Assembly (NCBI GenBank): GCA_947166205.1
Contig: CAMVDI010000076.1
Span: 1-8,193, forward strand
Reading direction: 5' to 3'
From: an uncultured Clostridia bacterium
GTDB taxonomy: Bacteria > Bacillota_A > Clostridia > Christensenellales > Aristaeellaceae
DNA: 8,193 nucleotides
Made by a program: the position numbers and the translations under genes
The notes under the pieces: generated by a model
Database searches by the model: none
Seen by the model: the letters and a program-made list of their open reading frames with translations, nothing else
Told to the model about the DNA's origin: nothing
Shown: positions 1,103 to 7,191 of the stretch, in pieces
Layout: the number at the start of each line of letters is the position of its first letter
Position numbering within the stretch: the stretch's first letter is position 1

Positions 1103-2533
1103 TCAGGCGGCGTCCAGCGTAAAGCAGAACCCGGCGCCGTCCTCCGTGTCCGTCAGGCGGATCTCCTTTCCGTGCATCTCCATGATCCGCTGGCAGATGC
1201 TCAGCCCCAGCCCGGTCCCCTTTCCGGAGGTATGGGCCCGGTCGGAGGTGAAGAAGCGTTCGAAAATCCTGGCCCGGTCCTCCTCCGGCACCGGCGCGCC
1301 GCTGTCCCAGACCGTGATCCGGGCCTCGCCGTCCAGGATCTCCGTCCGCAGGATGATCTTCCCCTTTTCCGGGGTGAACTTGATGGCGTTGTCCAGCAGG
1401 TTGATGACCACCTGCTCGATCCGTTCGCTGTCCGCCCGGACCCTGCAGGGATCCGCCCGGAAATCGCATTCCACTTCCTGCTTCCGGGCGTCCAGGTCGT
1501 TCATCCGCCGGATGACGGCCCTGCGCATCATTTCGTTCATGTCGAATTCCGTCATCTCCAGCCTGGCGTCGTCCCGCTCCAGCCGGCTCAGCTGCAGCAG
1601 GTCCTCCACCAGCCGGCTCAGCCGGTTGCTCTCGTCCGCCACCAGGCGCAGATAGGCCGGGTGCTCCTCCGGCGGAATCACGCCTTCGGCCATGCCCTCG
1701 GCGAAGCCCCGGATGCTCGTGATGGGGCTGCGCAGCTCATGGCTCACGTTGGCCACGAACTCCCTGCGGCTGCTCTCCAGATCCCCCAGCTTCTTCCGCA
1801 TCCCGTTGAAGGTATGGGTCAGCTGCCGCAGCTCCCGGTCCCCCCGGGTCTCGTCCAGCTCCAGGCTGAAATCCCCTTCCCCCATGGCGTTCGCCGCTTC
1901 GGTCAGGGCGGTCAGGGGCTTCATGATGGACCGGACCACCACCCAGGCGGCCGCGGCCCCCAGCAGCGCGGCGGCCCCCGCCGCGGCCACCGCCTGCAGC
2001 AGCAGAGCCTCCCTGCCGCTCTGGATCCGCGGCGCCCGGGTCTGGATAAAGACCGCCCCGGTCACGGTTCCGTACTGCATGAAGGGCACGCCCACCGTGA
2101 AGGCCGCGTCGGAGCCCACCGTGCTGCGGACCCGGATCGTCTCCCCCGCCAGCACCTGCTTGAGGGCCGCGCTGATTTCCTCGCCGCTCAGGCTGGCCAC
2201 GAAGTCCGGATCCTCGCTGTAGGCCGTCTCGATATTGGTCATGACGTTGCCCCAGCGGTCCACCACCGCGATGTAGGCGCCGAATTCCCCGTTCACCTTC
2301 GCGGCCATCCGGTTCATGTAGGCCCGGGCGGTCTGGTTGTAGAACAGGCCCCCGGAGCCGTTCAGATCCGCCGCCAGAAAGGCGATCTTCTCCGCCTCCT
2401 CCGCCAGATAGTCCAGCCGGGCGCTGATCCGCTGCTCCCGCAGGCTGAAATAGCTCAGGGCGCAGAAAACCGCGGTCAGCACGAGAATCACGCTCAGCAC
2501 CACGGCCATGATCCGCGCAAACAGCGTATTCAA
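1103..2533 (-). CDS. HAMP-domain sensor histidine kinase of a two-component system
   Basis: Membrane-bound sensor kinase of 476 residues that should autophosphorylate on His and act on the response regulator two genes upstream. Order of domains: TM1 about 8-28; extracytoplasmic sensor about 29-176, no family recognised; TM2 about 177-200; HAMP about 201-253; HisKA with the H box at 258-270 (VSHELRSP, phosphoacceptor H265); HATPase_c with N box around N378 (INLLDNAIKF), G1/D box D410-S-G, F box IFERFF (423-428) and G2 box GKGTGLGLS (437-445). After D410-S-G the usual glycine is replaced (DSGAPVP rather than DxGxGI), a variant I have seen in other Firmicute kinases and not proof of inactivity. 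The start is TTG, 7 nt after GGGAGGGG and overlapping the hydrolase stop as TTGA, which implies translational coupling. ATG at residue 9 is a weaker alternative because it would cut into TM1. A terminator follows at 996-1025. The signal sensed is unknown. Confidence 0.93.
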   Translation of the reverse strand: MNTLFARIMAVVLSVILVLTAVFCALSYFSLREQRISARLDYLAEEAEKIAFLAADLNGSGGLFYNQTARAYMNRMAAKVNGEFGAYIAVVDRWGNVMTNIETAYSEDPDFVASLSGEEISAALKQVLAGETIRVRSTVGSDAAFTVGVPFMQYGTVTGAVFIQTRAPRIQSGREALLLQAVAAAGAAALLGAAAAWVVVRSIMKPLTALTEAANAMGEGDFSLELDETRGDRELRQLTHTFNGMRKKLGDLESSRREFVANVSHELRSPITSIRGFAEGMAEGVIPPEEHPAYLRLVADESNRLSRLVEDLLQLSRLERDDARLEMTEFDMNEMMRRAVIRRMNDLDARKQEVECDFRADPCRVRADSERIEQVVINLLDNAIKFTPEKGKIILRTEILDGEARITVWDSGAPVPEEDRARIFERFFTSDRAHTSGKGTGLGLSICQRIMEMHGKEIRLTDTEDGAGFCFTLDAA

Positions 2534-2548
2534 GACGCTTCCCCTCCC
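2530..2548 (-). promoter_or_regulatory. Shine-Dalgarno and TTGA stop/start overlap coupling hydrolase to kinase
   Basis: The purine run GGGAGGGG (2548-2541) lies 7 nt before TTG (2533-2531). That TTG shares bases with the TGA stop of the serine hydrolase (2532-2530). This supports the TTG start of the kinase and suggests that ribosomes finishing the hydrolase re-initiate on the kinase. Confidence 0.7.
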
Positions 2549-3702
2549 AGTACCCGGTCAATGACCGCGTGCAGCCGGGCGTCCTTCTGATGCACATAGT
2601 CCACGGAGGACGGGTGCACGCTCCCGTCCGTCCAGCGGATCCGTCCCGTTCCGTCCGGGCGCAGGCCGTAATCCTCCCTGCGCTTTCCCTCCGGCGGAAT
2701 CAGCACCGTCAGCCGGTCCCGGACCCGGTTGCCGAGAAACACGGTGTAGCGGCCCCGCTCCGGATCCACGCTGAAATGATTTCCCGTGAATCCGCCGATG
2801 CCGAACGCCCGGGAGCTCATCCCGGCGGGGATCTCCGAATAATACTGATCCGGGTGCTTCAGATAGCAGCAGTATCCCAGATACTGGGTATAGGTTCCGT
2901 CCCGCAGCTCCCGGCCGGTCCGGTTCACCGCCATGGCCCCCAGGCTTTCCGGGGAAAGGAGGCGCCCCGACAGCAGGGCCCCGGCCAGCTTTTCCAGATC
3001 CCCCAGGGTGGAAAAGAGCCCCGCGTGGCCGCACAGGTCCCCCGTGTCCCCCTGCAGCACGGCCGCCTTGGGATCATGGGGCACGCCCCGGCGCGGATCC
3101 CTCCGGCAGATCAGGTTCTCCCCCTCGATCCGGTATTCCGGGCCGTAGAGCAGGCAGTCCCCGATCCGGTCCCCGGGCACCGCCGCCCAGGTTTCCGTCA
3201 TGCCCGCGGGCTCCAGGATCATCTCCGCCGCGCATTCCGCCAGCGGCTTTCCCGCCGCCCGCTCGATCACGTATTTCAGCACCATGGCCGGGATGTCCGA
3301 ATAGGCTCTTTTCCCGGCAAAGGGCACCGGCGCCGCCTCCCGCAGGCAGGCCAGCGCCTGGAGACGGGTTTCCTGCCTGTCGATCCGCTCCGGCGTCCGC
3401 AGCTGAATCTGGAAGCCCATCAGCTGCTCCACGGTCACCGCCCCCAGCCGGGAAAACTCCGGGCAGTACCAGGCGACCCGCCGGAAGGGATCCAGCATCC
3501 CCCGCTCCCAGAGCCGCATCAGGCAGATGCCCGTAAACAGCTTCGTGACCGAGGCCAGGTCGTAGACCGTGTGCTCCCCGATCTCCCGGCCGTCCCAGGC
3601 CCGGGCGGTCCGTCCGCCCCATCCGCAGCTCACCGCCAGCCCGTCCATGATCCCGGATTCCCCGGTAAAGAAGCGAACCGCTTCCCTGATCTCTTCGTTC
3701 AT
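2530..3702 (-). CDS. Beta-lactamase-fold serine hydrolase (PF00144-like), cytoplasmic
   Basis: Serine hydrolase of 390 residues in the class C beta-lactamase / PBP4* / EstB superfamily. These enzymes use an acyl-serine intermediate on beta-lactams, D-amino-acid peptides or esters; the substrate here is unknown. The nucleophile motif S51-V-T-K54 sits in the usual context DLASVTKLFTGI. The second motif is Y134-S-D, and the family stretch GHAGLFSTLGDL is at 225-236. The third motif, usually (K/H)-T-G in GHTGFTG, reads GIGGFTG at 301-307, so both the basic residue and the Thr are absent; SVDPERGRYTVFLGNRV after it is otherwise typical. No signal peptide or membrane segment is visible, so the protein should be cytoplasmic, unlike secreted PBP-like relatives. 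GGAG 7 nt before ATG supports the start. It lies 72 bp after the response regulator stop, in a GC-rich gap with no terminator, and overlaps the kinase start by 4 bp. Placement between regulator and kinase suggests a role tied to the signal; this is inference. Confidence 0.88.
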   Translation of the reverse strand: MNEEIREAVRFFTGESGIMDGLAVSCGWGGRTARAWDGREIGEHTVYDLASVTKLFTGICLMRLWERGMLDPFRRVAWYCPEFSRLGAVTVEQLMGFQIQLRTPERIDRQETRLQALACLREAAPVPFAGKRAYSDIPAMVLKYVIERAAGKPLAECAAEMILEPAGMTETWAAVPGDRIGDCLLYGPEYRIEGENLICRRDPRRGVPHDPKAAVLQGDTGDLCGHAGLFSTLGDLEKLAGALLSGRLLSPESLGAMAVNRTGRELRDGTYTQYLGYCCYLKHPDQYYSEIPAGMSSRAFGIGGFTGNHFSVDPERGRYTVFLGNRVRDRLTVLIPPEGKRREDYGLRPDGTGRIRWTDGSVHPSSVDYVHQKDARLHAVIDRVLGGEAS

Positions 3703-3774: not shown

Positions 3775-4467
3775 TCAGCTCAGCTCGAATTTGTACCCGA
3801 CGCCCCGGACCGTATGGATGTTCCATCCGTATTTCCCGCTGTCCGGCAGCTTTTCCCGCAGGCGCTTGATATGCACGTCCACGGTCCGGCTGTCCCCGAA
3901 AAAGTCGAAGCCCCAGACCTGCTTGAGCAGCTGCTCCCGGGTGAACACCTGATTCGGCGAGGAAGCCAGGAAATACAGCACCTCCAGCTCCTTGGGGGGC
4001 ATTTCCAGCCGCCGGCCCTCGTAGTAGGCGGCGTATTCCGTGATGCTGACCGTCAGCCCGGGGAAGGACAGATCCGACTTCTTCTCCTCCTCCCCGCCCT
4101 GGGTCCGGCGCAGCACCGCCTTGATCCGGGCCACCAGCTCCTTGGCGTCGAAGGGCTTGGTGATGTAGTCGTCGGCCCCCAGCTCCAGCCCCAGCACCTT
4201 GTCAAAGGTCTCGTCCCGGGCCGTCAGCATGATCACCGGGATCACGCTGCTTTTCCGGATGCTCCGGAGCACCTGGTATCCGTCCAGGCCGGGGAGCATC
4301 ACGGCCAGCACCATCAGGTCCGGCGGCATGCGGAAAAACTCGTTGACCGCGTCGTCCCCCCGGTCCGCGGTCCGCACTTCGTACCCCTCCTTCTCCAGAT
4401 ACAGCGTCACCAGCCGGCAGATATTCGGATCGTCGTCCACCACCAGAATGTTCGGCTTTTCCTTCAT
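3775..4467 (-). CDS. OmpR/PhoB-family response regulator lacking the phospho-accepting Asp
   Basis: DNA-binding response regulator of 230 residues, full length for the family. Receiver domain about 5-120: acidic cluster VVDDD at 9-13, switch Thr in LTA (T82), conserved Lys in TKPF (K104), and GADDYITKPF intact. The phosphorylation-site strand reads PDLMVLAVMLPGLDG (49-63), where homologues have VLDVMLPG: residue 55 is Ala (codon GCC, 4305-4303) instead of Asp. A single A-to-C change from GAC would explain it. A charged linker (about 121-133) leads to a winged-helix DNA-binding domain (about 134-229) with the expected TREQLLKQVWG, RTVDVHIKRLREKL and IHTVRGVGYKF. If A55 is real, the protein cannot be activated by ordinary aspartyl phosphorylation and may act constitutively, by dimerisation or by binding a ligand. 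The gene leads a unit with the hydrolase and kinase. No promoter was recognised in the 88 bp after mutS2, so it may depend on readthrough. Its target genes are unknown. Confidence 0.95.
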   Translation of the reverse strand: MKEKPNILVVDDDPNICRLVTLYLEKEGYEVRTADRGDDAVNEFFRMPPDLMVLAVMLPGLDGYQVLRSIRKSSVIPVIMLTARDETFDKVLGLELGADDYITKPFDAKELVARIKAVLRRTQGGEEEKKSDLSFPGLTVSITEYAAYYEGRRLEMPPKELEVLYFLASSPNQVFTREQLLKQVWGFDFFGDSRTVDVHIKRLREKLPDSGKYGWNIHTVRGVGYKFELS

Positions 4468-4555: not shown

Positions 4556-7003
4556 TTATTTCAGCGTCACCACGGTGACGCCGTCCTCCCCCTCCCCGTA
4601 CATGCCTGGGCGGCAGGATTTCACATGCCGGTTTCTCCGCAGCTCCTGCCGGATGCCGCCGCGCAGGACGCCGGTGCCCTTGCCGTGAATCACGCTGACC
4701 TCATGCAGCCCGGCCAGCACCGCCTCGTCCAGATAGATCTCCACCGCGGAAAGGGCCTCCTCCAGGTTCATGCCCCGGACGTCGCATTCCATCGGAACGG
4801 TCCGGGTCATGGCCCCCGTCCGGGTCTTCACCACGGTCTTCTCCTTCTCCGGCGCGGCCTTCACAAGCCGCAGGTCCCCGATCCTGGCCTTGAACTTCAT
4901 GCTGCCGCTGGCCAGCTCCACCTCGCCCCGGCTGTTGGGGGCGGCCAGCACGGAGGCCTCCGTGCCCAGCGTCAGCACCCGGACCCGGTCCCCGGGGCGC
5001 ACCGTTTCCGGCGCCGCCCCCTCCTCCGGCGCGGGGGCGGCCAGCCCTTCGCTCAGCCGGTCGATTCCCTGGTCCAGCTGCCGGCGCAGGGCGCCGGCGT
5101 CTCCCTGGACCCCCGCCTCCTTCTTCATCCGCTTCAGGTCGCTGAGAATGCTTTCGCTTTCCCGCCGGGCGTCCTGCAGGATGCGGCGGGCTTCCTCCTT
5201 CGCCTTCCGGAGGCCCTGCTCCCGCTTCTCCTCCATCTCCCGGCGCAGCTGCTCCGCTTCGTCCCGCAGCTTCAGCGTCTCCCGGCTGGCTTCCTGGGCC
5301 AGCTGGCGCTCCCGCTCCGCGATCTGCCGGTGATACTCCGCGTTGGCGATCACGTCCTCGAAGCGCACCTCGTCGCTGCTCAAAAGCTTCTTCGCGTCGT
5401 CGATCAGGTTCTCCGGCAGGCCAAGCCGGCGGCTGATCTCAAAGGCGTTGCTCTTTCCGGGAACCCCGATGCTCAGCCGGTAGGTGGGCCGCAGGGTTTC
5501 CACGTCGAATTCCACGCTGGCGTTCTCGACCCCCTCGGTGGTCAGGGCGAAGACCTTCAGCTCGCTGTAGTGGGTGGTGGCCGCCGTGCGCACCCGGATG
5601 TGCAGGAGCCGGGTCAGAATGCTCTGGGCCAGGGCCGCGCCCTCCGTCGGGTCCGTGCCGGCGCCCAGCTCGTCAAAGAGCACCAGATCCCGGGGCGTCA
5701 CCTCCCGCATGATCCGAACGATATGGGTCATATGCCCGCTGAAGGTGCTCAGGCTCTGCTCGATGGACTGCTCGTCGCCGATATCCGCCCAGACCTGCTC
5801 AAACACCGCCATCTCGGTTCCCAGCTCCGCCGGCACCTGCAGCCCCGCCTGGGCCATCAGGGTCAGCAGCCCCAGGGTCTTCAGGGTCACGGTCTTGCCG
5901 CCGGTGTTCGGCCCGGTGATCACCAGGGTATTGAACCCGGCGCCGCTTTCCTCCCGCTTCTCCGGCGGCTGCTTCTCCCGGTTCCGCTTTCCGCTTTCCC
6001 GGCCGGCGTCCTCCCCCCGCTCCTCCTCCGGCGGGTAGCCCAGCAGAATGTCGCTGGGCACCACCCGCTCCGGGTCGATCAGGGGATGCCTTCCCCGGAT
6101 GATATGCACAAACCCCCGCTGGTTCATCTTCGGCTGCACGCAGCGCAGCCGCCGGCTCAGCAGCCCCTTGGCGAAGATGAAGTCCAGCTCCGCCAGCGTC
6201 TCCGTGTTCTCCCGCAGGCCCGCCGCGAAGGGCGCGGTCTCCGCGCTGAGGGCCGCCAGGATCCGCTCGATCTCCCGGGCCTCCCGGATCTCCCATTCCC
6301 GGATCTCGTTTCCCATCTCCACCGCGGCCATGGGCTCGATGAACAGGGTCGCCCCCGAGGAGCTCTGGTCATGGACCAGGCCCGGCACCTGGGCCCGGTA
6401 TTCCGCCCGGACGGGGATCACGTACCGGTCCCCCCGCACGGTGATGATGGCCTCCTGCAGGTATTTCTGCATGGAGGAGGAGCGGATCATCTGGTTCAGC
6501 TTCTCCTTGATCCTGTCCTGGGCCCCCCGCAGGTGCCTGCGGATGTTCATCAGCTCGGAGGATGCCCGGTCCGCGATCTCGTCCTCGCTGAGGATGGCGT
6601 CGGTGATATCCCGCTCCAGGTTCCGGACCTCGATCAGCCTCTCCGCCCGCTCCCGCAGCAGCGGCGTGTTCTCCCGCTCCGTGATCAGCACGTCCCGGGC
6701 GGCCCGGCTGGCCCGCAGCAGCCCGGCCACGCTCAGCAGCATCCCGGGGCTCAGGGTTCCGCCCTTTTCGCAGACCGTCAGCGCGGGCCGGGCATCCGGG
6801 AACTCGGTCATGGGGTGACCGCCCACGTACTGCAGGATCACCGCCGCTTCCTCGGTTTCGCGCCCGGCCAGCTCAATATCGTACAGCTCGCTGTAGGGCT
6901 CCAGGGCCCGGCACTTCTCCGCCCCCAGGGGTGTCAGCGCCCCCTCCGCCAGCATCTCCCGGATCCTGGGAAACTCCAGCACCCGCAGCGTTCTCTCCGT
7001 CAT
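4556..7003 (-). CDS. mutS2: Endonuclease MutS2 (MutS-family ATPase with Smr domain)
   Basis: MutS2 is a dimeric ATPase. Family members suppress homologous recombination, and in Bacillus subtilis MutS2 has been linked to collided-ribosome rescue through its Smr domain. The 815-residue protein is slightly longer than the usual 780-790. Residues 1-300 are the core and lever region (FIEPMAAVEMGNEIREWEIRE at 221-241). Walker A is GPNTGGKT (364-371), the signature STFSGHM is at 419-425, and Walker B is LVLFDELGAGTDPTEGAALA (440-459). A charged coiled coil spans about 535-650, followed by a KOW-like stretch (about 666-715). The Smr domain (about 737-815) has D741-V-R-G and HGKGTGVLR (773-781). An unusual charged insert (about 325-356) precedes Walker A. 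The start is ATG at 7003 because the family N-terminus (MTERTLRVLEF) begins there and GGAGG lies just upstream; the frame stays open to 7240 but crosses the CIRCE operator. The gene diverges from htpG, and the response regulator follows with no clear terminator between. Confidence 0.96.
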   Translation of the reverse strand: MTERTLRVLEFPRIREMLAEGALTPLGAEKCRALEPYSELYDIELAGRETEEAAVILQYVGGHPMTEFPDARPALTVCEKGGTLSPGMLLSVAGLLRASRAARDVLITERENTPLLRERAERLIEVRNLERDITDAILSEDEIADRASSELMNIRRHLRGAQDRIKEKLNQMIRSSSMQKYLQEAIITVRGDRYVIPVRAEYRAQVPGLVHDQSSSGATLFIEPMAAVEMGNEIREWEIREAREIERILAALSAETAPFAAGLRENTETLAELDFIFAKGLLSRRLRCVQPKMNQRGFVHIIRGRHPLIDPERVVPSDILLGYPPEEERGEDAGRESGKRNREKQPPEKREESGAGFNTLVITGPNTGGKTVTLKTLGLLTLMAQAGLQVPAELGTEMAVFEQVWADIGDEQSIEQSLSTFSGHMTHIVRIMREVTPRDLVLFDELGAGTDPTEGAALAQSILTRLLHIRVRTAATTHYSELKVFALTTEGVENASVEFDVETLRPTYRLSIGVPGKSNAFEISRRLGLPENLIDDAKKLLSSDEVRFEDVIANAEYHRQIAERERQLAQEASRETLKLRDEAEQLRREMEEKREQGLRKAKEEARRILQDARRESESILSDLKRMKKEAGVQGDAGALRRQLDQGIDRLSEGLAAPAPEEGAAPETVRPGDRVRVLTLGTEASVLAAPNSRGEVELASGSMKFKARIGDLRLVKAAPEKEKTVVKTRTGAMTRTVPMECDVRGMNLEEALSAVEIYLDEAVLAGLHEVSVIHGKGTGVLRGGIRQELRRNRHVKSCRPGMYGEGEDGVTVVTLK

Positions 7004-7164: not shown

Positions 7165-7191
7165 TTAGCACTCTTTTTGATTGAGTGCTAA
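7165..7191. promoter_or_regulatory. CIRCE operator (HrcA-binding site)
   Basis: TTAGCACTC (7165-7173), a 9-bp spacer, then GAGTGCTAA (7183-7191): an exact match to the CIRCE consensus, the inverted repeat bound by the heat-shock repressor HrcA. Classical targets are the dnaK and groESL operons. Here it lies between htpG and mutS2. It ends 7 bp upstream of the htpG -35 hexamer, further upstream than usual; CIRCE is commonly found around or downstream of the transcription start. It could act on htpG, on an unrecognised mutS2 promoter, or on both. Confidence 0.96.

Follow-up and report, generated by a model that had tools for sequence, protein, structure and literature searches.

The features of the window, i.e., the whole stretch of 8,193 nucleotides that was analysed, are collected in Table 1. 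The order mutS2, regulator, hydrolase and kinase was the same in three relatives (L168, L169 and L170), while in a further locus, L001, the kinase directly follows the regulator and the hydrolase lies farther downstream. Among the best 30 hydrolase loci, counted by eye, 21 lay on the same contig as a regulator and at most about 6 kb from it, and 9 did not; this proximity in 21 of 30 suggests that the hydrolase is functionally linked with the two-component system, and perhaps with the cell envelope.

Table 1. Genes and codon of interest, with positions counted from the first base of the window
Feature	Position	Strand	Basis
Sugar-type ABC permease, runs off the left end		-	
Sensor histidine kinase, 476 aa (HAMP, HisKA, HATPase_c), TTG start	1103..2533	-	Pfam
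Serine hydrolase of 390 aa (PF00144; beta-lactamase/PBP-like fold), flanked by the regulator and kinase genes	2530..3702	-	Pfam, NCBIfam
OmpR/PhoB-family response regulator, 230 aa	3775..4467	-	Domain matches: PF00072 residues 7-116, PF00486 residues 151-227
Regulator codon 55: GCC (Ala), against Asp in relatives examined	4303..4305	-	Sequence and homologue comparison
mutS2, 815 aa, upstream of the regulator, same strand	4556..7003	-	Profile/homologue matches; start inferred from P0241 length (815 aa)
htpG, runs off the right end	start 7310	+	

The kinase start overlaps the hydrolase stop by four bases (2530-2533), and its product contains two hydrophobic stretches, around residues 1-33 and 176-200. 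The H-box (VSHELR), N-box (LLDNAIKF) and G2 box (GKGTGLGLS) are all kept, in line with the view of a first-pass annotation of this DNA that an apparently functional kinase is encoded in the same unit as the regulator. A kinase defect arising from the G1 box, DSGAPVPEE, was considered and rejected, as this box varies among the 119 relatives (e.g., DDGASVPEE and DNGAEIPEE). The kinase and MutS2 comparisons each comprised 119 homologues, the window’s own records (P0121 and P0241) having been left out, and the MutS2 queries began at 6988, i.e., without the first five residues. Of note, residue 168 of the kinase (2030-2032, minus strand), just before the second hydrophobic stretch, is Pro where all 119 homologues have Gln; this Q168P is a second private change in the regulator-kinase gene cluster, besides that at codon 55 of the regulator.

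Between mutS2 and htpG, at 7165-7191 on the plus strand, lies a perfect CIRCE element (TTAGCACTC-N9-GAGTGCTAA), the operator of HrcA. It ends 118 bases before the htpG start, and no such element arose in 200 shuffles. Of 30 htpG loci (L138-L167), 29 have an exact copy close to the htpG match, L166 being the exception, so that, judged by this motif, htpG seems to be widely controlled by HrcA in the window’s family. The htpG gene of Bacillus subtilis is not known to belong to the CIRCE regulon.

Codon 55 and the receiver pocket in the window and its relatives

The plus strand reads GGC at 4303-4305, giving a minus-strand GCC (Ala) at residue 55 of the 230-aa regulator frame, in the context ...DLMVLAVMLPGLDG...; the D55A substitution with codon GCC that the first-pass annotation had reported is thus correct. 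Both domains of the regulator matched their Pfam profiles above cut-off and over the full length, the receiver PF00072 with 106.5 bits (profile positions 1-111 of 111) and, C-terminal to it, Trans_reg_C PF00486 with 98.3 bits (1-77 of 77), forming the receiver and winged helix of the OmpR/PhoB family. On account of these domains and its near-identity to P0001, its best match and a separate record, we filed the protein in that family. At the end of beta-3, where the family has a phosphorylatable Asp, it has Ala instead, and this bears on the phospho-control of the window’s copy of the regulator. The other pocket residues of the family (D11, D12, T82 and K104) are present, and a neighbouring partner histidine kinase with intact motifs, usual for such regulators if not obligatory, is present too. 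By comparison with PhoB, D11 and D12 are presumably the metal-binding acidic pair. The remainder of the receiver (D11, D12, D13, T82 and K104) and the DNA-binding domain, matched by PF00486 from end to end, are intact, as the earlier annotation had held.

We compared the regulator with a set of protein homologues comprising the best 120 of 7999 scored proteins, at 81-100% identity. D11 was common to 119 of these 120, and D12, D13, T82, A83, Y101 and K104 to all of them. The window’s regulator has Ala at T+1 (A83) and Tyr at K-3 (Y101), and also keeps the Pro at D+4 (P59) and the Gly at D+8 (G63). Over the 143 columns conserved at 97% or more, it departs at column 55 and, conservatively, at I115 (Val in 117 of 120). 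The gene shows no further decay, and D55A is accompanied by no other change in the pocket.

At column 55, Asp was found in every one of these best 120 of 7999 homologues, which marks it as the phospho-acceptor column. P0001 is identical to the window’s regulator at 229 of 230 residues, the sole difference being its Asp at 55, and the next homologues are at most 92% identical among the matches listed. Since no listed homologue is marked as encoded by the window, the window’s protein is probably one of the seven members of the P0001 cluster; of the seven, the comparison covered P0001 itself, and other records may carry the Ala as well.

The genomic comparisons gave the same picture. Regulator matches were found in all 200 family genomes, and codon 55 was read in the orthologues of 47. 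All 52 whole-genome loci encode Asp at this column (47 distinct orthologues from 47 genomes, one of them the gene of L001, plus two paralogues of one genome and three genes fetched twice), as do all 80 loci from the species-genome contigs, 79 of which are 40-59% identical to the window’s regulator. Among the loci from viral contigs, Asp was present in 23 of 24 at a looser cut-off, the remaining match (L104) spanning residues 68-112 only and hence not column 55; 22 of the 24 passed the stricter cut-off, and all 22 have Asp. The nearest relatives that bear names are metagenome-assembled Clostridia. In the three nearest genomes (87-89% identity) codon 55 is GAC, so a single A-to-C transversion is enough to yield GCC. 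Matches in plasmid records were short only, covering 6-12% of the gene, and came from Azospirillum and Hymenobacter. A scan of the 200 family genomes for the Ala motif, in one exact sequence context that differently worded Ala receivers would escape, returned a single match, in a frame antisense to another open frame; its candidacy as an Ala receiver was ruled out, as the open frame matches no Pfam family. A limited search of the literature for cases in which the phospho-acceptor has been lost in nature gave a paper on barley, of no relevance here.

The comparison across orthologues that the first-pass annotation had proposed thus shows Asp in every relative examined that covers column 55, making the Ala private among them. 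By our own criterion, which excludes errors and private mutations, the missing Asp is not a stable trait of the lineage. That annotation had put first an atypical, phosphorylation-independent regulator. Such a regulator, an aspartate-less receiver or pseudo-receiver that acts independently of the kinase or responds to a different signal, we consider very unlikely, and the reading finds no support in the relatives. An Ala does occur at the phospho-acceptor position of known aspartate-less receivers, accounting for 9% of the substitutions there, with FrzS as an example, according to PMC4395418. However, the Ala appears in no examined relative covering the column, the cluster also encodes a kinase whose motifs are intact, three relatives too have a kinase there, and D11, D12, T82, K104, A83, Y101, P59 and G63 are all kept, whereas pseudo-receivers often lose such residues. 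As a group, they also change the second acidic residue, the Thr, the Lys and neighbouring positions, as described in PMC12632262. In its assembled sequence, the window’s protein lacks the phospho-acceptor Asp; as it carries none of these additional changes and its relatives have the canonical residues at those positions, we did not file it with the pseudo-receivers. A remodelled pocket or loss of the Y-T coupling residues, common in that class if not obligatory, was not seen, T82, A83, Y101 and K104 being as in all 120 homologues. The annotation had also named, as one pattern that would make the Ala an error or a private mutation, Asp in all close orthologues together with decay elsewhere in this copy; the examined orthologues that cover the column do all have Asp, even the one that is identical at every other residue, but the gene is otherwise undecayed.

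Private residues and the origin of the Ala codon

We next considered how often such singular residues occur, defining a private residue as one unique to a single row at an otherwise invariant column, with the window’s row counted in. At least one was present in 20 of 121 regulator rows (22 events, including W215G, D192Y and P105H), and the kinase and MutS2 alignments, of 120 rows each, had 28 and 39 such rows, respectively. Spread over the 126 eligible columns of the regulator, 22 events lead to an expectation of 0.87 among the five residues of the pocket; with all columns treated alike, the probability of at least one pocket event is 0.62. Two were observed, D11E in P0096 and D55A in the window. 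Private residues being frequent among the aligned regulators, one on a pocket residue is unsurprising, and D55A is also singled out because the residue is famous. Caution is therefore in order, since an eye-catching change at the active site of one assembled sequence is, at the observed rate, to be expected by chance.

Taken together, these results make it highly probable that the window encodes an ordinary phospho-dependent OmpR/PhoB-type regulator, part of a Clostridia-type two-component cluster, with a private missense that is either a recent mutation or a base error. The third reading of the first-pass annotation, a recent loss-of-function change, is accordingly the one we favour, with base error beside it, given that the relatives examined keep Asp.

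A base or assembly error would mean that the cell has Asp and that the assembly has the wrong consensus base at 4304, e.g., through low coverage or mixed strains, and we put its chance slightly below even. The regulator is the same as P0001 apart from residue 55, and singletons at invariant columns are common in such records. The kinase’s Q168P likewise falls at a fully invariant column (Gln in 119 of 119) and, had the ancestral codon been CAG, would again take a single A-to-C change. Against an error, all five tested genes are open over their aligned length, and the window’s MutS2 has no invariant-column singleton, its HtpG having one (alignment of 31 rows). Moreover, five genes of the window together carry 114 private non-synonymous changes at first and second codon positions, of which 16 are A-to-C, compared with 10 of 73, 19 of 117 and 11 of 94 in three relatives given the same treatment. 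A window-wide error signature in the form of an A-to-C excess, an idea prompted by D55A and Q168P, was thus discarded, there being no enrichment over the three relatives.

The other origin, to which we likewise assign not quite an even chance, is a real and recent mutation, confined to one strain or subpopulation, that would have abolished function or locked the regulator in one state, leaving the kinase unable to signal through it. The codon lies one transversion from that of the nearest relatives, P0001 has Asp with all other residues identical, and the gene is otherwise intact, as expected of a very recent change. The stretch is not visibly error-rich, and we consider base error and recent mutation to be about equally probable.

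Predicted consequences and the closest known systems

From the families involved we infer that, in the normal state, the membrane kinase would phosphorylate the regulator at D55, whereupon the phosphorylated regulator would dimerise and then bind DNA through its winged helix. A single A-to-C transversion would have turned the Asp codon 55 into an Ala codon. If the Ala is real, the kinase could presumably not phosphorylate the regulator, which would stay in its unphosphorylated, low-activity state, blind to its kinase. This would be a natural one-step uncoupling of a two-component pair and useful for understanding the origins of aspartate-less receivers. Should the Ala be not only real but also selected, some strains would be uncoupling an intact, conserved and possibly envelope-linked system by losing the phospho-acceptor alone, with a kinase devoid of output and a regulator acting, if at all, unphosphorylated, an early stage in the evolution of an aspartate-less receiver; we regard this as a distinctly long shot.

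In its kind, the system looks like one already known, a common two-component regulator and not a new type of switch. The best NCBIfam models for the window’s regulator were MtrA (242.7 bits) and YycF (241.5 bits), neither of which reached its cut-off (300 and 340, respectively), and the protein fell below the curated cut-off in each of the 25 NCBIfam families listed, of 98 matched. Its best PDB sequence matches were RegX3 (2oqr) and MtrA (2gwr). With these OmpR/PhoB regulators (MtrA, YycF/WalR, RegX3 and PhoP-like) it shares the full-length receiver and winged helix, and it differs from them by the Ala in place of Asp at 55.

Regarding the comparators named in the first-pass annotation, ChxR is a genuine comparator (PMC3960148), whereas the name JamC was not recognised. 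The likeness of the window’s regulator to RitR, ChxR, FrzS and HP1043 lies in an assembled sequence without the phospho-acceptor Asp, and FrzS, according to PMC4395418, has Ala at that very position. Yet aspartate-less receivers and pseudo-receivers are described, in PMC4395418 and PMC12632262, as having reorganised pockets and non-phosphorylation inputs. In the window, by contrast, the pocket is otherwise canonical, the Ala state is found in one sequence only and the partner kinase is encoded nearby.
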